NCBI GenBank assembly: GCA_016870355.1
Contig: VGBR01000009.1
Location: 1 to 64,000, forward strand
DNA: 64,000 nt
Source of the DNA: Actinomycetota bacterium
GTDB lineage: Bacteria; Actinomycetota; Acidimicrobiia; IMCC26256; PALSA-555
Direction of reading: 5' to 3'
Shown: positions 52,943-64,000 of the stretch, in pieces
Layout of the letters: each line of letters starts with the position of its first letter
Position numbering within the stretch: the stretch's first letter is position 1
Notes under the pieces: model-generated
The model's database searches: none
Told to the model about the DNA's origin: nothing
What the model saw: only the letters and a program-made list of their open reading frames with translations
Made by a program: the position numbers and the translations under genes

Positions 52943-54616
52943 GTGAGGGCACGCCAGATCACGCGCGTCGTCGCGGCTTGTGCAATCGCGACCGTCGTCG
53001 GGGCAATTTCGATCTTCCCGGCGAACGCCGCGGTACGCAGGCAAGGCGGCGGTGGTGGCGACATCGTCATCGGCGCGGAGCAAGAGGGCGACTGTGCGGA
53101 CTGGATCAGCTCTTGCGCCGGTTCGAGCTGGCAGATCTGGATCATGGGCCAGCACACGATGCCGCGCACGTTCGACTTCGTCCCGAAGAGCAAGACCAGC
53201 ATCGTCTACGAGCGCAACGTGCTCCTTGCCAGCGAGCCCACCGTCGAGGAAGAGGGCGGCAAGACCGTCATCACCTACGAGATCAACCCCGACGCGGTGT
53301 GGTCCGACGGTGAGCCGATCACCTCGCACGACTTCTTCTACACGTGGGACCAGATCGTCAACGGCGAGGACATCTACGACCCGACGGGCTACATCGACAT
53401 CGAGTCGGTCGACGACTCCGACCCGGCGGTGGCTGTGGTGACGTTCTCCACGCCGTACTCCGGCTGGCGCTCGCTGTTCGGCGGTCAGTACGGCATCTAC
53501 CCGAGCCACATCCTCGAGGGCCAGGACCGCAACGCGGCGACGGTCAACGGGTACGACTGGTCGGGCGGGCCGTACATCGCCGATTGGCAGAAGGGTGTCA
53601 GCGTCACGTTGACCCCGAACCCCAACTGGTACGGCGACCCGGTGAAGAACGACAGCGTCACGTTCCAGTTCCTGACGGACACGGCCGCGGAGTTCCAGGC
53701 GTTCACGTCGGGTCAGGTGGACGCGATCTACCCGCAGCCACAGCCGGACGTCATCGAGCAGATCGAGGCCGGCATCGAGGGTGCGAACTCGTACTTCACG
53801 CCCTACACACCCAACGCGGAAGCGCTCTGGATCAACAACGCGGCCTTCCCGTTCGACTCGGTCAAGGTGCGCCAGGCGTTCGCGTACTCGATCGACCGTG
53901 ACGTCGTCGTGGAGCGGCTCTTCGGCGGTCTCGGGATCACCGAGGCGCTCAACACGATCAACCCGCCGATCACGGCCGAATTTGCTGACACCGAGGCGTT
54001 CTCGAAGTACACGCTGAACCTCAAGAAGGTGAAGCAGCTCATGACGAGCGACGGCTGGGAGAAGAACGCCGATGGCTTCTGGGAGAAGGACGGCGAGCAG
54101 GCCGACATCGTCATCCAGTCGACCGAGGGCAACGCCCGCCGTGCGCTGACCGAGGAGATCCTCCAGGAGCTGCTCGGCAACGCGGGGTTCAACCTGACCA
54201 TCGAGAACCACTCGGCTGGCGACCTGTTCGGTCAGAACCTGCCGAACGGTGACTTCCAGGTCGGTCTGTACGCGCAGGTGGCGACACAGCTCGAGCCGGG
54301 CAACTGCTCGATCTTCTGCTCGTACAACATCCCGACCGAGGACAACGAGTTCAGCGGCCAGAACTGGACACGTACCGACCTGCCGCAGATCGATCCGCTG
54401 CTGGAGACGGTGGGGTCGAGCTCGGACTCCGACGAGGTCGCGGCGGCCAACAAGAAGGCCGACAAGATCTCGGCGAAGTTCTTGATCTCGCTCCCGCTCG
54501 ACCCGCTACCGAACATCTCCCTGTGGAGCAAGGACATCAAGGGGATCAACAAGAAGGCACCTGACAGCGGCGTGTTCGCTCTGTTCTGGAACCTGGCGGA
54601 GTGGACCAAGTCGTAG
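52943..54616 (+). CDS. ABC transporter substrate-binding protein, peptide type (SBP_bac_5)
   Basis: This 557-residue exported receptor of family 5 binds peptides or similar solutes for the permeases encoded downstream. A signal peptide of about 30 residues ends FPANAA; there is no lipobox cysteine, unusual for a Gram-positive cell, where such receptors are normally lipoproteins. The body has WSDGEPITSHDFFYTWDQIV, GPYIADWQKG, and the VRQAFAYSIDRDVVV segment typical of the family. AGGGGG precedes the GTG. It is followed by a strong hairpin that probably lowers expression of the permease genes relative to this receptor. Confidence 0.92.
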   Translation: MRARQITRVVAACAIATVVGAISIFPANAAVRRQGGGGGDIVIGAEQEGDCADWISSCAGSSWQIWIMGQHTMPRTFDFVPKSKTSIVYERNVLLASEPTVEEEGGKTVITYEINPDAVWSDGEPITSHDFFYTWDQIVNGEDIYDPTGYIDIESVDDSDPAVAVVTFSTPYSGWRSLFGGQYGIYPSHILEGQDRNAATVNGYDWSGGPYIADWQKGVSVTLTPNPNWYGDPVKNDSVTFQFLTDTAAEFQAFTSGQVDAIYPQPQPDVIEQIEAGIEGANSYFTPYTPNAEALWINNAAFPFDSVKVRQAFAYSIDRDVVVERLFGGLGITEALNTINPPITAEFADTEAFSKYTLNLKKVKQLMTSDGWEKNADGFWEKDGEQADIVIQSTEGNARRALTEEILQELLGNAGFNLTIENHSAGDLFGQNLPNGDFQVGLYAQVATQLEPGNCSIFCSYNIPTEDNEFSGQNWTRTDLPQIDPLLETVGSSSDSDEVAAANKKADKISAKFLISLPLDPLPNISLWSKDIKGINKKAPDSGVFALFWNLAEWTKS

Positions 54617-54644
54617 GAAGCGCGTTCCGCAAGTCATCGTGTGA

Positions 54645-54674
54645 GCGGTCCCGGCCTCTCGAGGCCGGGACCGC
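54645..54674 (+). terminator. 13-bp hairpin between receptor and permease genes
   Basis: GCGGTCCCGGCCT (54645-54657) pairs perfectly with AGGCCGGGACCGC (54662-54674) over a CTCG loop. With no T-tract it is more likely a partial terminator or mRNA-protecting hairpin that gives a high receptor-to-permease ratio. Confidence 0.7.
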
Positions 54675-54710
54675 CACGCGCGCGGGGGCACCGACGAGGG
54701 GCCGCTCCGG

Positions 54711-55679
54711 GTGCTGACGTACGTCGCTCGGCGGGTGCTCTATTCGATCCCCGTGCTGCTCGTCGCATCGTTCCTGCTCTTCGTGTTCGTCCGAGCGACC
54801 TTCGACCCGACCGTGAAGCTCCGGGCGAGTCGCGATCCCCAGGCCGTGCAGCGCGAGCGCGAGCGGCTCGGTCTCGACAAGCCGGTGCCCGAGCAGTTCG
54901 TCAAGTGGCTGGGCGACTTCGTCCAGGGCGACTTCGGCCACAGCGAGCGCACGCGCGAATCCGTCTCCACGATGATCGTCCGTGCGCTCGGGTACACCGT
55001 GCAGCTGATCTTCTGGGGCGTCGTCGTCTCCGCCATCATCGCGATCGCGATCGGCGTCTACTCGGCGTCCCGACAATATTCAAAGCTCGACTACACCTTC
55101 ACCGGGCTCGCGTTCCTCGGGTTGGCCATGCCACCGTTCTGGTTCGGCCTCCTCGCGATGCAGCTGCTCTCGAGCGGCCCGAAGCAATGGTTCGGGCTCT
55201 CCGAGCCGATCTTCCCGACGATCGGACTGCACAGCCCGGGCGAGAGTGGGATCAACCTCGACTACCTGCGCCATCTCGTGCTGCCCGTCATGACGTTGAC
55301 GGTCCAGATCATCGCCAGCTGGAGTCGCTACCAACGAGCGTCGATGCTCGACGTGATGTCCTCGGACTACATCCGCACGGCGCGGGCCAAGGGCGTTCCG
55401 CAACGAAGGGTCGTCTTCAAACACGGTCTGCGCAACGCGCTCATCCCGCTCGTCACCGTCATGTCGCTCGACATCGGGGCCGTGTTCGGCGGTCTCATCA
55501 TCACCGAGAAGATCTTCTCGGTGCCGGGCATGGGGCGGCTGTTCTTCGATTCGTTGCTCTACGGCGACATCATCACGCTGGAAGCGTGGTTCGTGGTCTC
55601 GGCGCTGTTCATCATCCTGTTCAACCTGATCGCCGACGTGCTGTACGGCGTACTCGACCCGCGGGTGCGGCTCGCGTGA
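54711..55679 (+). CDS. ABC transporter permease, DppB/OppB type
   Basis: This 322-residue inner-membrane permease has six helices. The first is at residues 8-28, followed by an extracytoplasmic loop with GLDKPVPEQFVKWLGDFVQG. The cytoplasmic EAA coupling loop is YIRTARAKGVPQRRVVFKHG with the RNALIPLV that follows. The start is GTG 54711. It pairs with the next permease, 10 nt downstream. Confidence 0.93.
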   Translation: MLTYVARRVLYSIPVLLVASFLLFVFVRATFDPTVKLRASRDPQAVQRERERLGLDKPVPEQFVKWLGDFVQGDFGHSERTRESVSTMIVRALGYTVQLIFWGVVVSAIIAIAIGVYSASRQYSKLDYTFTGLAFLGLAMPPFWFGLLAMQLLSSGPKQWFGLSEPIFPTIGLHSPGESGINLDYLRHLVLPVMTLTVQIIASWSRYQRASMLDVMSSDYIRTARAKGVPQRRVVFKHGLRNALIPLVTVMSLDIGAVFGGLIITEKIFSVPGMGRLFFDSLLYGDIITLEAWFVVSALFIILFNLIADVLYGVLDPRVRLA

Positions 55680-55689
55680 AGCGGCCACG

Positions 55690-56655
55690 ATGACACCCCT
55701 GGAGCCGAGAGGCCCGGTGATTGCCGAGGGGTCGCCGCTCGGATCACTCGTGACGCTCCCCGGTGCCGGCGGCGAGGTCAGCGAGACCGTCACCGTCCAC
55801 CGTTCGCAGTGGGAGCTCTTCCGTCGACGCTTCATGCGCCACCGGATGGCCTTGATCTCGATCGGCGTGCTCGTGCTGCTGTTCGTGCTGTGCTTCGGTG
55901 CCGACATCTTCGCTCCCTACGAGGCAACCCGTACCGGTGTCCCGCAGGATCTCCTGCTCGGCCCGGTCGGTCCGAGCGGCGCCCACTGGTTCGGCACCGA
56001 CGAGCTCGGACGCGACGTGCTGTCACGGATCCTCTACGCCGGCCAGATCTCACTGAAGATCGGGCTGGCCGTCGCACTCCTGTCGACGCTCGTCGGGACG
56101 GTCGTCGGTGCGGTGGCCGGCTACATGGGGCGCGCGGTCGACCAAGGCCTCATGCGCCTGACCGATCTGTTCCTCATCGTCCCGCAGATCGCGATCCTCG
56201 CAATCGCGCTGCGGGTGTTCGGCTACAAGGACATCACGGTCATCCTCGTGTTGGCGGGTGTGTTCTGGATGTACGAGGCCCGCGTCGTCCGGGGTCAGAT
56301 CCTGTCGCTCAAGGAAAAGGAGTTCATCGAAGCGGCGCGTGCTTCAGGTGCATCCAGCACGCGGATCGTGGTCAAGCATCTGCTCCCGAACGTGATCGGG
56401 CCGATCATGGTCAACGCGACGCTCTCGGTGGCGCTGGCGATCATCACTGAGTCCACGCTGTCGTTCCTCGGCTTCGGCGTACAGCCACCGAAGACGTCGT
56501 GGGGCAACATGCTGTCGAACGCGGCGGGGTACGTCGGGACACCGAGGGCGTATCTGCTCTACTTCCCCGGCCTGGCGATCTTGTTGACCGTGCTCGCGGT
56601 GAACTACCTCGGTGACGGTCTGCGCGACGCCTTCGATCCGCAGAGCAGCCACTGA
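55690..56655 (+). CDS. ABC transporter permease, DppC/OppC type
   Basis: This 321-residue permease has the OppC N-terminal segment (SQWELFRRRFMRHRMALISI) with the first helix at about 51-72, HWFGTDELGRDVLSRILYAG, and the EAA loop FIEAARASGASSTRIVVKHL followed by LPNVIGP. It forms the heterodimeric channel with the preceding gene. The stop shares one base with the next start. Confidence 0.93.
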   Translation: MTPLEPRGPVIAEGSPLGSLVTLPGAGGEVSETVTVHRSQWELFRRRFMRHRMALISIGVLVLLFVLCFGADIFAPYEATRTGVPQDLLLGPVGPSGAHWFGTDELGRDVLSRILYAGQISLKIGLAVALLSTLVGTVVGAVAGYMGRAVDQGLMRLTDLFLIVPQIAILAIALRVFGYKDITVILVLAGVFWMYEARVVRGQILSLKEKEFIEAARASGASSTRIVVKHLLPNVIGPIMVNATLSVALAIITESTLSFLGFGVQPPKTSWGNMLSNAAGYVGTPRAYLLYFPGLAILLTVLAVNYLGDGLRDAFDPQSSH

Positions 56656-57680
56656 TGTCCGACGCGCCCCTGCTCGAGGTCGACGACCTTCGCGTCGAGT
56701 TCACGACTGACGACGGCATCGTGACGGCGGTCGACGGCATCAGCTTCACCGTCGAGGACCATGAGGTGCTGGGGGTGGTCGGAGAGTCGGGCTCGGGGAA
56801 GACCGTGACCGCGCTGGCGATCCTCGGATTGCTGCCGAAGAAGACGACGGTCACCGGCTCTGCCAAGTGGCGAGGTCGCGAGCTCATCGGGCTCGGCGAC
56901 AAGGAGCTTCAGCCGCTCCGTGGCGAGGAGATCGCGATCGTGTTCCAGGACGCGCTCGCGTCATTCAACCCCGTGTTCACCATCGGGTCCCAGATCGGCG
57001 AAGCCATCGAGGTCCATCACGAGATCGCCAGCAAGGACCGCGACGAGCGTGTCGTCGAGCTCCTCGACCTCGTCGGCATCCCGAATCCGCGCCAACGGGC
57101 CGATCAGTACCCGCACGAGTTCTCCGGGGGCATGCGCCAGCGAGCGATGATCGCGATGGCACTGGCGAACGACCCGGCGCTGCTCATCGCCGACGAGCCG
57201 ACGACCGCACTGGACGTCACGCTTCAGGCCCAGGTGCTCGAAGTGCTCGAGCGCATCCAGGCGCGCACGAGGTCCTCGATCATGCTCATCACTCACGACC
57301 TCGGCGTCGTGGCTGGCATCGCCGATCGGATCGCGGTCATGTACGCGGGTCGTCACATCGAGACCGGACCGGTCGACCAGATCTTCTACGAGCCGCGTCA
57401 CCCCTACACCTTGGGATTGCTGGCGTCGTTGCCGCGTCTCGACCGCAAGACGCACGGCCAGAAGCTCTACCGGATCACGGGTCAACCCCCGTCGCTCATC
57501 GAGCGGCCACCCGGATGCACGTTCCATCCGCGGTGTGAGTTCGCGCGGCTTCCAGAGCCGTGTGCGACGGTGGTTCCGGCACTCGAGGAGGTCGACCCGT
57601 CACATCGCGCCGCGTGTCACTTCTCGGAAGGTCTGGTGGGACTCACGCCCGAGCGGCTGCGCGAGGGGCAGCGCGCGTGA
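56655..57680 (+). CDS. ABC transporter ATP-binding protein, DppD/OppD type
   Basis: This 341-residue ATPase has Walker [10 protein letters not shown] near residue 44, the Q loop VFQDALAS, signature SGGMRQR, Walker [13 protein letters not shown], and the switch His in ITHDLGV. The C-terminal oligopeptide domain has cysteines ([20 protein letters not shown]) that ligate an Fe-S cluster or zinc in related proteins. It overlaps the next gene by 4 nt. Confidence 0.94.
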
Positions 57681-58705
57681 CGTCCATCACTTCCGAGAGC
57701 ACCGTGAGCCCTCGTGTCGGCTCGCCAGTGCTCGAAGTCGACCGGTTGGTGAAGGACTACCCGATCCGCGCCGGGCTGCTGCGGCGCGAGGTCGGCCGCG
57801 TCAGCGCCGTCGCCGACATCTCGTTCTCGGTGCACAAGGGCAAGACGCTCTCGCTCGTGGGGGAGTCGGGCTGCGGCAAGACCACGACGGGCCGGTGCAT
57901 CCTTCGCCTGATCGAGCCGACGAGCGGAGAGGTGCGCTTCGCGGGCACGGATGTGATGAAGGCCTCGGGCAAGGAGCTGCGTGCGCTCCGGCGGAGCATG
58001 CAGATCGTCTACCAGGACCCGTACGCGTCGCTGAACCCGCGCCTCACGGTCGGGAGCATCCTCGCCGACCCCTTGAAGGTGCACGGCCGCTGGCACGACG
58101 GAGGTTCCGAACGCATCTGCCGTCTGCTCGAACGCGTGGGGCTCGATCCGAAGCACGTCAACCGGTATCCGCACGAGTTCTCTGGTGGCCAGCGACAGCG
58201 GATCGGGATCGCACGCGCGCTCACGCTGGATCCAGATCTCATCGTGCTCGACGAACCGGTGAGCGCGCTCGACGTCTCGATTCGTGCCGGCGTGGTGAAC
58301 TTGCTCGAGGAGCTCCAAGTGGAGCTCGACCTCGCCTACGTGTTCATCGCGCACGATCTCGGCGTCGTGCGGCACGTGTCTGACGAGGTGGCGGTGATGT
58401 ACCTCGGCAAGATCGTCGAGATCGGTCCGAGCGACGCTGTGTACGACCACGCGTCGCATCCCTACACGCAAGCTCTGCTTTCGGCGGTTCCGGTACCCGA
58501 TCCGAAGGTCGAGCGTGAGCGGCGACGCATCCTGCTCGAGGGCGATGTGCCCAGCCCGGTTGATCCCCCGAGCGGGTGCCGGTTCCGTACGCGCTGTTGG
58601 AAGGCGCAGCAGATCTGTGCCGAGGAAGAGCCGGCGTTGATCGACCGGGGACAGGGGCACCCGGTCGCGTGTCACTTCGCGGACGAGGCGCTCCCGGTCT
58701 CCTAG
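57677..58705 (+). CDS. ABC transporter ATP-binding protein, DppF/OppF type
   Basis: This 342-residue ATPase is the second of the pair. Walker A is [13 protein letters not shown] loop [12 protein letters not shown], signature [15 protein letters not shown], Walker [13 protein letters not shown], and the switch [13 protein letters not shown]. The C-terminal cysteines [15 protein letters not shown] match the OppF extension. The start GTG overlaps the previous stop (GTGA). The stop codon overlaps that of the convergent glycosyltransferase gene in CTAG at 58702-58705. Confidence 0.94.
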
Positions 58706-59511: not shown

Positions 59512-59595
59512 GTCGGAGTGGCGGAATTGGCAGACGCGCTAGCTTGAGGGGCTAGTGCCCGCAAGGGCGTGGGGGTTCAAGTCCCCCCTCCGACA
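59512..59595 (+). tRNA. tRNA-Leu(GAG)
   Basis: An 84-nt class II tRNA with acceptor GTCGGAG/CTCCGAC and an A discriminator. The anticodon arm CTAGC-TTGAGGG-GCTAG has anticodon GAG, reading CUC and CUU leucine codons. It has a long variable arm (TGCCCGCAAGGGCGT) and a T arm GGGGG-TTCAAGT-CCCCC. CCA is not encoded. A recombinase fragment on the other strand ends inside its 3' part. Confidence 0.95.
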
Positions 59596-60034
59596 CGTTC
59601 GTTTGTACACGCGGACATGGGGCGCGATTCCGCCACTACGACCCGGTCTTCGGGCCGATAGGTGAGCGTGATCCCGAGGTCGGCGTAGACGGCAGCCTTC
59701 AGTGTCGGGTCCGCTTCGGCGAGCATCGCCCGAACGTTCCCGACCTGATCGAGCAGGGCGCGGATCTCGTGTGGGCTGCTCGGCATCGTGGCCTCCGTTT
59801 CCAGGAGCGCCTGTTCGGCGGCGAGGCGTTGGCCCTGCACCTCCTTGATCCAGGTGGCGACGACGGTCGGGTCGGCACCACCTTCGAGCGCGGCGCGGTA
59901 GCGGGCGAGCCTCGTGTCACAGTCCATGAGTGATCGTCTGGCCGCTTCCGCCCGGGCGTCCTCTGCGGCTCGGTCGTGGTCAGCGTTGGATAGCGTCTCG
60001 CACGTTGCCTCAACGTTCTCAGCATCGCGCTTGC
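59577..60034 (-). pseudogene. C-terminal fragment of a large serine recombinase
   Basis: About 150 codons match the C-terminal helical tail of site-specific serine recombinases: DCDTRLARYRAALEGGADPT, VVATWIKEVQGQRLAAEQAL, then ADPTLKAAVYADLGITLTYR and PEDRVVVAE. The catalytic N-terminal domain and the zinc ribbon are gone: the frame is cut near 60034, right before the divergent glycosyltransferase start. Its stop codon lies inside the tRNA-Leu gene (59577-59579). It is a remnant of a mobile element inserted at or near this tRNA, not a working enzyme. Confidence 0.72.
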
Positions 60035-60037
60035 TCC

Positions 60038-61171
60038 ATGAGCATCTTGGTCGTCTGCCCCCGCTTCGCGCCCGACACGGGCGGGATCGAAACGCTCCTC
60101 GCCCAGGTGCTGCCCGAGCTCTCCACGCGTGGGCTCGAGATCGTCGTTGCCGCGGGCACCGGCCGTGAGGACCACGCGCCGGTCGAGGTGCTCGACGGCA
60201 TCCCGGTCTACCGAATCCCCTTCGACTTGCCGATGCACTCGGCAAAGCCAGCAGGGATCCTCGAGGCCGCGCACCGGATTCGCATGATCGAAGCCGACCA
60301 TGAGGTCAGGATCCGTCACGTTCATGGCTTTGGCGACATCGGGCTTTGGTACGCCTTGCGTGCACACCAGCGCCGCCCGTTGCCGCTGGTGGTCAGCGTG
60401 CACGGCACCTTCGAGTCGCTGGGTCGGCTCGCGCCCAGTGCCGAGAAGCTCTTGCGAGCCGCCGATGTGGTCACGGCAGTGTCGGGACCGGTCCGTTCGG
60501 CTGTGTACGAAGCGATACCTGACCTCGCTGCTGAGGTGCGGTTGATCCCCAATGGCTTGCGATTCGTCGACACTGCACCCACCACTCGGCCGGTGGCTGG
60601 TCAGCTCCTCGGTGTCGGACGCCTCCTCGAGCAGAAGGGCTTCGATATCGCGGTCGAGGCGCTCGCACGCCTCCGGGCAACACATCCGAGCTGCCAACTC
60701 ATGATTGCAGGCGATGGCCAATGTGCCGACGCGATCCGTCGGCAAGCCAAGCGATCCGGCGTCGCGTCGCGCGTGCACCTGCTGGGGAACATCTCGCGCG
60801 AGGACATGCGGCGCGCGATGAATGACGCCAGCATCGTCCTCGTGCCGTCGCGCCACACCGAGGGCTTCTCGCTCGCCGCGCTCGAAGCCGCGCACGCCGC
60901 CCGTCCGGTGATCGCATCGGGCATCGGCGGGCTCGTCGAGACCGTCGAGAACGGTGTCACGGGTCTGCTCGTACCGCCTGACGACCCGGGCGCGTTGGCC
61001 CGGGCAATTGCACGCATGCTCGACGACCCTGTCGGTGCCGCGGCGATGGGACAAGTCGCGCATGAGCGCGCCAGGGAGCGTTTCGCGTTCGAGCGGTGCG
61101 TCGACGCGTATCACGGTCTCTACGTCGAGTTGGACTCTCCGGCGCTGTTGTCGACCGCCTCACGGGTGTAG
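60038..61171 (+). CDS. Glycosyltransferase family 4
   Basis: This 377-residue GT-B enzyme has the N-terminal acceptor domain (LVVCPRFAPDTGGIETLLAQ) and the C-terminal donor domain with GVGRLLEQKGFDIAVEAL, VPSRHTEGFSLAALEAAHAA and the E-x7-E catalytic pattern there. It probably transfers a sugar from a nucleotide donor. The ATG 60038 has no ribosome binding site and begins right at the end of the recombinase remnant. It is 4 nt upstream of the PqqD-like gene and the first of the four-gene plus-strand cluster that continues to the window end. Confidence 0.9.
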   Translation: MSILVVCPRFAPDTGGIETLLAQVLPELSTRGLEIVVAAGTGREDHAPVEVLDGIPVYRIPFDLPMHSAKPAGILEAAHRIRMIEADHEVRIRHVHGFGDIGLWYALRAHQRRPLPLVVSVHGTFESLGRLAPSAEKLLRAADVVTAVSGPVRSAVYEAIPDLAAEVRLIPNGLRFVDTAPTTRPVAGQLLGVGRLLEQKGFDIAVEALARLRATHPSCQLMIAGDGQCADAIRRQAKRSGVASRVHLLGNISREDMRRAMNDASIVLVPSRHTEGFSLAALEAAHAARPVIASGIGGLVETVENGVTGLLVPPDDPGALARAIARMLDDPVGAAAMGQVAHERARERFAFERCVDAYHGLYVELDSPALLSTASRV

Positions 61172-61175
61172 TCGC

Positions 61176-61613
61176 GTGTCCGAGCGTGGATTCTCGATTC
61201 GGGTGCCGGCGATCACGCACGAGCGCTTGGACGACGAGGTGATCGCGATCAACCTCGAGACTGGCATCTACTACGCGCTTGTTGGCCCCGGTGCCGACGT
61301 GTGGTCGTGCTTCGATCCGGCCGGGAGCGTGGGCGGGGCTTGCGTCGTGCTCGCAGCGCGCTACAGAACTTCGGCCGACGAGATCCGCGCTGATGTCGAA
61401 GCATTCGCACGCCGGCTCGAGGTCGCCGGACTGTTGGCCGACGTCGAGGCACCTGATCCACCGGCCGGCGCGTTGCCGGTGGCGCCACCCCAGAGCGGCT
61501 GGGCCTCGCCTGAGCTGGAGGAGTACCGCGATATGGCCGACCTCGTGCTCCTCGACCCGATCCACCAAGTAGATGAGGCTGGGTGGCCGCACCTGCCCGA
61601 GTCAGCGGGCTGA
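61176..61613 (+). CDS. PqqD-like peptide chaperone
   Basis: The first 95 residues have the PqqD/RiPP-recognition fold (RVPAITHERLDDEVIAINLE, TGIYYALVGPGADVW, then a winged-helix region ending RRLEVAGLLADV). A tail follows with YRDMADLVLLDPIHQVDEAG and WPHLP, a conserved acidic segment seen in PqqD proteins that accompany HprK-like kinases. The GTG start is 4 nt after the glycosyltransferase. In known systems PqqD proteins bind a leader peptide or present it to a modifying enzyme. No precursor peptide gene is visible nearby, and the tail itself may be the substrate. Confidence 0.78.
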   Translation: MSERGFSIRVPAITHERLDDEVIAINLETGIYYALVGPGADVWSCFDPAGSVGGACVVLAARYRTSADEIRADVEAFARRLEVAGLLADVEAPDPPAGALPVAPPQSGWASPELEEYRDMADLVLLDPIHQVDEAGWPHLPESAG

Positions 61614-62647
61614 GTCCATCGCACTCGACGGCACGGTTCTTCGCGTCGAACCGGGCGCTGTTCGGCGCGGCTGCGGAGGCTACCGGGATGACGAGTCTCC
61701 GGTACCGAATCGCCGAGCAGTCGGTGCTCGTGCGGGCCGTGGGCACCGACCTCGTTGAGCGGACCGACCCCGCGCTCTCCGCGCGACGCGACACCGAGCC
61801 CGATGAAGCCCCGGCACTCACGATCGACATGTGGGACAGCGCGGTGTCGGGCATCGGCATGCCCCGCGCGCCGTGGGTTCCACAAGAGCTCGCGCCGCTT
61901 GGTCTCGTGGGCTCGTATTGCGACAGCCGGTTCATGACCGCGGTCGACGTGCATACGGCGTCGCTGAGCATCTTCGATGCCGCCACGTCGCACGGCGTGT
62001 TCTGGCTCCACGACGCGCGGCGCATGGCGTACTGGCAATCCGCTTCGCCGCTGCGCCTGATCCTGTCGTGGTGGGGCAGCCGGCGCGGCATGCAGCTCAC
62101 CCACGCAGGAGCGGTCGCGACATCCGACGGCGCAGTGCTGCTGGTCGGCGGCGCGGGCGCGGGGAAGTCGACGGCAGCGCTCGCCTGTCTCGCTGCGGGT
62201 CTCCACTACTTGGGCGACGACTACTGCCTCGTCGCGTTGGAACCGCAGCCCTGGGTATACGGCGTGTACGCCACAGCCAAACTCCGACCCGATTCGCCTT
62301 CGCTGCTCCCGGCCCTGCGCCCGTCGGTGCGCAACGCAGCGCGACTCGATCGCGAGAAGGCCATCATCGACTTGGCCGGCACGCACGAGGCCCAATTGGG
62401 TGTCGGCGCGCCCATCCGCGCGATCGCGGTGCCGTCGGTCACTGGGCGTGTCGGTGTGTCGGCGATCAGTCCGAGCGCCGTGCTGCGAGCCATGGCTCCG
62501 AGCACCATCTTCGGTCTCTTCGGCGCGACACCGGGATCGCTGCACCTGCTCGCCGACCTCGCACCACGCGTGCCCGGCTACAGGCTTGAAGTCGGCGAAG
62601 ACCTCGACGCGGTTGTCGATGCCATCAGCTCGTTGGCGGCTTCGTGA
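61583..62647 (+). CDS. HprK-related kinase-like protein
   Basis: This 354-residue protein has an N-terminal domain of about 165 residues (ARFFASNRALFGAAAEATGM, then WDSAVSGIGMPRAPWVP) and a C-terminal P-loop kinase domain related to HPr kinase/phosphorylase: HAGAVATSDGAVLLVGGAGA with GKSTAAL (Lys195), and YLGDDYCLV around residues 208-216. Real HprK acts on Ser46 of HPr; this group is linked instead to PqqD-like proteins. Start GTG at 61583 overlaps the PqqD gene by 31 nt; the ATG at 61688 would remove a conserved segment. The target is unknown. Confidence 0.78.
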   Translation: MAAPARVSGLSPSHSTARFFASNRALFGAAAEATGMTSLRYRIAEQSVLVRAVGTDLVERTDPALSARRDTEPDEAPALTIDMWDSAVSGIGMPRAPWVPQELAPLGLVGSYCDSRFMTAVDVHTASLSIFDAATSHGVFWLHDARRMAYWQSASPLRLILSWWGSRRGMQLTHAGAVATSDGAVLLVGGAGAGKSTAALACLAAGLHYLGDDYCLVALEPQPWVYGVYATAKLRPDSPSLLPALRPSVRNAARLDREKAIIDLAGTHEAQLGVGAPIRAIAVPSVTGRVGVSAISPSAVLRAMAPSTIFGLFGATPGSLHLLADLAPRVPGYRLEVGEDLDAVVDAISSLAAS

Positions 62648-63354
62648 CTTCCGACAGCAGGGGTTCACCGACGATCTCAGCGATCATCCCGGTACGGGAT
62701 GGTGCCGCGTTCATCGAGGACGCGATCGACAGCGTGCTGTCGCAAACCGTGCCACCCAGCGAGGTGATCGTCGTCGACGACGGCTCCCGCGACGGCACCG
62801 CCGACGTCGTCGCGCGGTTCGGCCCGTCAGTCCGCTTGGTGCGCCAGGAAGCACAGAACCAGTCCGTTGCCCTCAACCGCGGGATCGAGGAAGCTGCCGG
62901 CGCGCTGCTGTCGTTCTGTGACGCTGACGACATGTGGACCAAGGACAAGCTCGAGCGTCAGCTCGAGGTGCTCGATCGGGACCGCGAGCCGCTGCTCGTG
63001 AGCGGGCTCGTGCAGCAGTTCGTCGACCCCAGTGCGCGCGACGCGACCCGCAGCCTGCGGGTGAAATCCGCGCCGCAGCGCGGCCCGCTGACTGGAACGC
63101 TATTGGCGCGTCGGGAGGTCTTCGGGCGCGTCGGCTTGTTCAATTCCGACTTGTACACGGCGGCGGGTGTCGAATGGATCGCGCGCGCGCGCGCGCTCGA
63201 GATGCGCGTCGAGACCGTCGAGGTAGTCGTGCTTCTCCGACGGGTCCACGGCCAGAACATCACCGTCGTGCAGCACGAGCAGTGGGATCGCGATCTCCTG
63301 GCTGTCATGCGTGCCCATCGGCGTCGCAACGGCGGGTCGGCCCGCGGGGACTGA
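62644..63354 (+). CDS. Glycosyltransferase family 2
   Basis: This 236-residue GT-A enzyme has ISAIIPVRDGAAFIEDAIDS, the nucleotide motif VIVVDDGSRDGTADVV, the metal site LSFCDADDMWT, and an acceptor region with GVEWIARARALEM. It has no membrane helices. The GTG start overlaps the stop of the HprK-like gene (GTGA). It probably decorates the same product as the GT4 enzyme. A 14-nt run of alternating GC lies at about 63181. Confidence 0.87.
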   Translation: MTSDSRGSPTISAIIPVRDGAAFIEDAIDSVLSQTVPPSEVIVVDDGSRDGTADVVARFGPSVRLVRQEAQNQSVALNRGIEEAAGALLSFCDADDMWTKDKLERQLEVLDRDREPLLVSGLVQQFVDPSARDATRSLRVKSAPQRGPLTGTLLARREVFGRVGLFNSDLYTAAGVEWIARARALEMRVETVEVVVLLRRVHGQNITVVQHEQWDRDLLAVMRAHRRRNGGSARGD

Positions 63355-63362
63355 ACACAGCC

Positions 63363-64000
63363 GTGCCGTTCCTCGAGCTCGAACCCCGCGACCGGCTCCT
63401 CGTTCGAGCGGCGGTTGATGCCGGGCCGTCTGCCGCGACGGCTTGGGACGAGTGGTTCCGCGACACTGATCTCGACGACGCGGCGTACCCCGAGGGTCGC
63501 TTGTTCCCGCAGGTGTTCGCCAACCTCAATGCGTCGGGTCTCGCCGGGTGCCTTCCGCCCCGGATGCGGGGCAAGTACCGCTGGCTGTGGGCATCCAACC
63601 AGATGCGAGCCGACGCAGTCGCGCCCGCGCTGCGCGCACTGGTCTCGGCGGGGGTCAAGACACTGCTGCTCAAGGGCGCCGCCCTGCTCGCTGCCAACCG
63701 GCGCGGCTGGGGAACGCGCGAGATGGGCGACATCGACGTGCTCGTACCCACGACACAGGCCGGTACCGCCGCGGCGGTACTCGTGGACGCTGGCTGGACC
63801 GGCGTGCAGGGCGTCACACCCCGATACCTCGCAGCACGCCTCGTTGCACGTCGTCACGGTTGGAACTTCGATGGCGATGGTCTTTCGGCAGACATCGACC
63901 TGCACTGGCACGTGTTCGAGGGCGTCCGCGGGCTCCATGCGAACGACGAGCTCTGGAGTGCCGCGCGGCCGGTCGCCTTCGCCGGTGTTGACACCGAGCG
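63363..64000 (+). CDS. Nucleotidyltransferase-family protein (NTP_transf_5-like), 3' end outside window
   Basis: The 212 codons visible match the NTP_transf_5 group: LLLKGAALLAANRRGWGTRE, then the metal-binding MGDIDVLVP (Asp123 and Asp125), WTGVQGVTPR, and DIDLHWHVFEG. Related proteins are recurrent partners of PqqD and HprK-like genes. The start is GTG at 63363, 8 nt after the GT2 gene. The reaction is unknown; nucleotidyl transfer is inferred from the DxD core only. Confidence 0.78.
   Translation, partial: MPFLELEPRDRLLVRAAVDAGPSAATAWDEWFRDTDLDDAAYPEGRLFPQVFANLNASGLAGCLPPRMRGKYRWLWASNQMRADAVAPALRALVSAGVKTLLLKGAALLAANRRGWGTREMGDIDVLVPTTQAGTAAAVLVDAGWTGVQGVTPRYLAARLVARRHGWNFDGDGLSADIDLHWHVFEGVRGLHANDELWSAARPVAFAGVDTE

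Follow-up and report, generated by a model that had tools for sequence, protein, structure and literature searches.

The locus studied here raises the question of what is made by a compact gene set in which a PqqD-like protein is encoded beside an HPr kinase-like protein, glycosyltransferases and a putative nucleotidyltransferase, and whether the PqqD-like protein might itself be the substrate of these enzymes. The window, by which we mean the whole stretch of 64,000 nucleotides that was analyzed, comprises positions 1-64000 of a contig in a 2.8 Mb Acidimicrobiia MAG that is 96% complete. All five genes named in the preliminary description are present and lie on the + strand with overlaps or gaps of a few bases between them. 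The first encodes a GT4 glycosyltransferase (60038..61171, +, ATG at 60038; PF13692 with E 8e-38, PF00534 and PF13439). It is followed by genes for a PqqD/RRE-domain protein of 145 aa with a C-terminal tail (61176..61613, +; PF05402; GTG start at 61176, alternative start at 61203), an HprK-like kinase of 354 aa (61583..62647, +; weak HprK-model matches, conserved active-site residues and modeled fold), a GT2 glycosyltransferase (62644..63354, +; PF00535, E 2e-27) and an NTP_transf_5 protein of 535 aa (63351..64958, +, cut by the window end at 64000; PF14907 with E 6e-19 for the in-window part and 4e-29 for the whole protein). An acyltransferase-3/SGNH gene (contig 64955-67021) comes next outside the window, and after it the packed gene run stops. 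It had been proposed to look beyond position 64000 for an asparagine synthase-like gene or an exporter; the contig was read past this point and neither of them, nor a B2-like gene, is encoded downstream of the cluster. Upstream of the cluster, positions 52943-58705 of the window hold an oligopeptide-type ABC transporter operon that is complete, with genes for the binding protein, two permeases and two ATPases.

GTDB genomes were scanned with a PqqD alignment, yielding 204 relatives, 80 of which were kept. The 30-residue tail signature [FYW]xxPxLxKYTDMQDLLLLDPIHEVDExGWP was recovered at 90 distinct loci. These represent at least a dozen phyla, which according to the record titles include Actinomycetota, Chloroflexota, Cyanobacteriota, Pseudomonadota, Acidobacteriota, Verrucomicrobiota, Planctomycetota, Bacteroidota, Bacillota, Nitrospirota, Gemmatimonadota and others. 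Contigs titled Acidimicrobiia are among the nearest cluster-bearing relatives. The order of tailed PqqD and HprK genes recurs in several genomes, where they are accompanied by GT2, NTP_transf_5 and GT4, and the computed gene content bears out the expectation that the neighborhood is conserved in relatives: a kinase gene is found at a distance of at most 9 kb from the tailed PqqD gene in 77/90 loci and directly downstream in 55, a GT2 gene is nearby in 82/90 and an NTP_transf_5 gene in 65/90, while kinase, GT2 and NTP_transf_5 are all present in 60/90. The genomes of 12 loci without a nearby kinase gene were searched, and in 7 of them the kinase is encoded elsewhere. In about nine loci the kinase is fused to GT2. 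A RefSeq-annotated plasmid from Crinalium features a PqqD - nucleotidyltransferase - HPr kinase - FkbM methyltransferase - GT - ... - nucleotidyltransferase - ABC transporter arrangement. An ABC exporter is missing near most loci, including that in the window, and present in some relatives. The distribution of the cluster is patchy, and it is absent from an almost complete genome of the genus to which the MAG belongs. A tRNA-Leu (gag; window 59512-59596) resides immediately upstream of the cluster, and a minus-strand ORF (59577-60029) that is not recognized by Pfam reads like the C-terminal remnant of a serine recombinase. Together with the patchy distribution, these two features suggest that the cluster is an integrated island; a search for an att-type repeat flanking the cluster beside the tRNA-Leu gene found none.

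The feature that sets these PqqD proteins apart is the tail. In 87 nonredundant proteins its consensus is [F/Y]xxPxLxKY(T/S)DMQDLLLLDPIHEVDExGWP followed by a short variable end, and the mean pairwise identity amounts to 0.77 for the tail vs 0.33 for the PqqD domain, a conservation that is partly selected for, as positions D105-P114 (87-protein alignment numbering) served as the search seed, with IHxVDxxGWP and the upstream (F/Y/W)xxPxL lying outside the seed. Tail conservation is thus far above chance, and the remark in the preliminary description that the tail is conserved understates the case. The near-invariant part in the window, DMADLVLLDPIHQVDEAGWP (residues 119-138; 61530..61589, +), was delimited by conservation in the nonredundant relatives, among which two Asp, one Pro and the His are found in 87/87, Gly in 86/87, Trp in 84/87 and the final Pro in 83/87 proteins. 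By comparison, in 33 ordinary PqqD proteins the chain either stops shortly behind the domain or goes on without the motif. The tail is matched by no entry in Pfam or NCBIfam, and its single match in the PDB was judged to be due to chance. The open-access papers searched for PqqD with HprK, for SynChlorMet and for C-terminal extensions of PqqD contain nothing about it, and, judged from the open-access literature searched and the curated model libraries only, this exact architecture is undescribed.

The domain preceding the tail gives a first hint at its role. Residues 21-87 of the window protein match PF05402 above the cut-off (E ~7e-11 to 9e-11), and by sequence the domain is related to the lasso RRE TbiB1 (E 7e-19). 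A Foldseek comparison of the AF2 model (mean pLDDT 87) with TbiB1 (5v1v) gave an E value of 7e-5, a TM score by target of 0.86 and an rmsd of 1.4 A, such that the domain models as a leader-binding domain of the type known from lasso peptides. RREs of lasso and LPP systems recognize the leader motif (Y/W)xxPx[L/V/I/F/A], which is bound as a beta strand and in lasso precursors has its residues at -17, -14 and -12 (PMC10368454, PMC13381572, PMC6784204). The same spacing is seen in W-A-S-P-E-L at residues 109-114 of the window PqqD protein (61500..61517, +). The pattern [FYW]xxPx[LVIF]xx[YFHC]xD[ML] fits 82/91 tail proteins, and [FYW]xxPx[LVIF] occurs in 0/33 tailless PqqDs. When aligned by eye, the motif WKKPELEVLDV of a paeninodin-family precursor from Priestia corresponds to WASPELEEYRDM in the window tail. 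In the AF2 model, residues 113-117 form a strand within a block of pLDDT 93 that is preceded by a weaker linker. These findings suggest that the RRE may hold the tail of its own protein in the manner of a leader.

The second partner, the P-loop protein, had been proposed to be related to HprK, and this is what the data support. Direct matches of the window protein are weak (Pfam Hpr_kinase_C, E 0.014; TIGR04355, 28 bits against a cut-off of 200). A 64-member profile built from its relatives leads to HPr kinases of solved structure (1jb1, E 4e-8), with which the His, Walker A and Asp-Asp residues align. Relatives share H174, the GxxGxGKS Walker A residues G189/G192/G194/K195/S196, D212 and D213 (H174 to D213, 62102..62221, +), and this spacing equals that of H148-G163-G166-G168-K169-S170-D186-D187 in BsfK (PMC10368454). 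The kinase model (pLDDT 95) adopts a PEPCK/HprK-type fold. The assignment to the HPr-rel systems, which had also been put forward, is not supported. A HprK-like and a PqqD-like protein are common to HPr-rel-A (TIGR04352/TIGR04353) and the cluster studied here, but the window kinase reaches only 24.5 bits with TIGR04352 vs a cut-off of 200, and TIGR04353 gives weak matches in 12/83 PqqD relatives (best E 1e-6) and none to the window PqqD, and membership was therefore rejected. The SynChlorMet cassette likewise combines a HprK-like (ScmC) and a PqqD-like (ScmD) protein, with weak profile matches in relatives. It was rejected because the window proteins lack a match to ScmC/ScmD; a radical SAM protein occurs in only 4/81 other neighbors scanned. 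PADLOC models yielded no credible match to the cluster and an anti-phage defense system was dismissed on this ground.

Closer parallels exist with the phosphorylated lasso peptides (paeninodin, pseudomycoidin, Bsf), which share an RRE B1 protein, a kinase with the His-Lys-Asp-Asp set, a nucleotidyltransferase-like N protein, the leader spacing and, in some cases, an ABC exporter. In pseudomycoidin biosynthesis, a Ser is phosphorylated by the kinase PsmK and the phosphoSer receives a hexose through PsmN, a homologue of NTP transferases (PMC9266682); lasso B1 stimulates the kinase acting on the leader-bound precursor (PMC10368454). The cluster studied here differs in that it is devoid of Asn-synthase cyclase, B2 protease and separate precursor, and the first two absences led us to reject lasso membership. 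A B2 leader peptidase (PF13471) is absent from the window genome, while matches to an Asn-synthase-like cyclase (PF00733) are all located on three other contigs of that genome and none on the contig carrying the cluster. PF13471 scored above cut-off in 5/26 tail genomes, in none of them adjacent to the tailed PqqD gene. Oscillatoria sp. PCC 10802 (4235464-4250301) carries a lasso-type B2/Asn-synthase pair ~10-15 kb from its tailed PqqD gene.

LPP clusters (LppA/K/B/S/D/N) encode an RRE, a kinase (K), an NTP transferase (N) and an MsbA-like exporter and no cyclase, and have been described by their authors as restricted to Bacillota (PMC13381572). They resemble the tailed PqqD clusters in their discrete RRE, HprK-like kinase and NTP transferase, in GT-rich surroundings, in the lack of a cyclase, in the (Y/W)xxPx[L/V/I/F/A] motif and, for some relatives, in an MsbA-type exporter. 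LPP systems have a separate precursor with variable C-terminus, an SpI peptidase and a phosphorylated Ser3, whereas in the clusters studied here the RRE itself carries the leader, the near-invariant tail has no conserved Ser and the carriers belong to many phyla. SpI (TIGR02228) was found above cut-off in 3/26 genomes and never on the contig of the tail, and as a separate precursor is also missing, membership was rejected. As the set lacks the cyclase and B2 protease of lasso systems, an SpI peptidase and a separate precursor, it is neither lasso nor LPP, nor is it HPr-rel-A; it would rather be a tailoring set of the phospho-RiPP type with the leader fused to its own RRE.

Could the precursor be encoded separately? 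All characterized RRE/K/N relatives have one (PMC13381572, PMC10368454), and FusB1-type RREs outside Bacillota bind several leaders (PMC13381572). It is thus conceivable that the strand bound in cis is a placeholder that auto-inhibits the RRE and is displaced, in LPP- or lasso-like fashion, by the leader of a precursor encoded elsewhere. Within 7 kb of the clusters, small ORFs are conserved only as chance or same-genus shadows, and ORFs with the leader motif are not enriched (4.8% on the same vs 4.9% on the opposite strand), so a separate precursor near the cluster was rejected. These searches covered 7 kb around the clusters and a precursor encoded at a greater distance may exist, but the near-invariance of DPIHEVDExGWP is left unexplained by a placeholder, and we consider auto-inhibition improbable. 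Taken together, the leader motif at the start of the tail and the failure to find a separate precursor lend support to the proposal, made in the preliminary description, that the PqqD tail is the substrate. The invariant part speaks against it, as it contains no conserved hydroxyl residue and no conserved Ser. In 14/91 tail proteins Ser, Thr and Tyr are absent all the way from D105 to the C-terminus, making a hydroxyl phosphosite common to all of them unlikely. Phosphorylation of a tail hydroxyl thus cannot be general, and the invariant Asp, His and Trp are the sole chemically obvious fixed side chains of the tail.

A PqqD protein equipped with a leader-like peptide and tail may thus be its own substrate or carrier. 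The reading that we tentatively put forward, giving it not quite an even chance, is a tailoring cluster akin to those for phosphorylated RiPPs, with peptide and recognition domain joined in one protein and the peptide serving as acceptor or as carrier or docking arm. The parts would be the RRE, the HprK-like K, the NTP_transf_5 protein as N and the glycosyltransferases, joined in some relatives by the ABC exporter. The PqqD/RRE domain would clamp its own C-terminal (F/Y/W)xxPxL strand, much as lasso and LPP RREs do with a separate leader, and thereby hold out the invariant segment that follows, (D)MQDLLLLDPIHEVDExGWP, to its partners, which would be kinase, N protein and GT2s. These enzymes would use the segment as an acceptor, or as a permanent carrier or docking arm, while building a phosphorylated glycan or glycopeptide; neither leader cleavage nor macrocyclization would take place. 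Gene content, co-conservation, RRE fold, leader-motif spacing, the conserved kinase active site and the absence of cyclase, B2, SpI and separate precursor come from computation, whereas clamping in cis in solution, the order of the reactions and the nature of the modified group are inferred. Predicted pLDDT values of 60-70 for the invariant segment of the window PqqD are as expected if it is used by partners. Counting against this reading, 25/90 loci have no NTP_transf_5 gene nearby, and most, including the window, have no ABC exporter.

As the chief competing reading, the protein would be no more than a docking adaptor, with an unmodified tail that acts as a short linear motif and tethers the RRE to kinase, N protein or GTs, the true substrate being a sugar, a lipid or an unlinked peptide. 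It would account for the lack of a conserved acceptor hydroxyl and for the low pLDDT of the invariant segment on its own, and the weak NCBIfam matches of the kinase include the FomB family, a distant HprK-like small-molecule kinase. A dock for one such enzyme would, however, be expected to drift along with that enzyme, whereas the tail, at 0.77 identity, is much better conserved than the kinases, which are about 18-38% identical to that of the window. Furthermore, in 26 whole genomes the tail is confined to PqqD ORFs, one or two per genome, and absent from other proteins bar two weak extra matches. We regard this adaptor as a serious but rather doubtful alternative.

Plain polysaccharide synthesis would likewise fit GT-rich neighborhoods. 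PqqD and kinase may then merely regulate the glycosyltransferases of an ordinary exopolysaccharide or capsule operon without peptide product, in line with the GT4 gene, GT2 arrays and adjoining acyltransferase-3/SGNH gene, with sulfotransferases as the commonest extra cassette neighbors (top Pfam family, 11/81 extra neighbor proteins) and with the location of LPP and atypical lasso clusters within capsule loci (PMC13381572). Such an operon leaves a lasso-type leader motif on the RRE and the invariant tail unexplained and appears unlikely to us.

Returning to the peptide fused to its own RRE, the occurrence of a nearly unchanged peptide from cyanobacteria to Acidimicrobiia amid a diverging domain and diverging enzymes suggests an important shared function, one that is modeled by neither Pfam nor NCBIfam. 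Should the RRE indeed bind the tail of the same protein, PqqD proteins of this kind would be self-contained substrates or carriers, which would help to explain the absence of a precursor in the clusters, and they would provide a test system for the cooperation of HprK-like kinase and NTP_transf_5 that pseudomycoidin and LPP have left open. More speculatively, and with clear reservations, a RiPP-like class spanning at least a dozen phyla can be envisaged in which RRE, own leader and invariant acceptor form a reusable carrier for a phosphate-linked glycan that would be built by the HprK-like kinase, the NTP_transf_5 protein and the GT2s.

Some organisms feature deviating arrangements. In six Chloroflexota loci, ABC transporter genes directly follow the tailed PqqD gene and in several of them AMP-binding enzymes are encoded further downstream; in the same six loci the kinase is more than 9 kb away from the tailed PqqD or none was found. 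The C-terminal domain of the window NTP_transf_5 protein (~250 aa, contig 64200-64958) has no Pfam match, is missing from many relatives and looks like a beta-sandwich of a type found with polysaccharide enzymes. The content of a record titled Bifidobacterium breve (MAG MaH-09apr19-113) matches a contig of a genome in the genus of the window MAG, and this title is probably a mislabeling.
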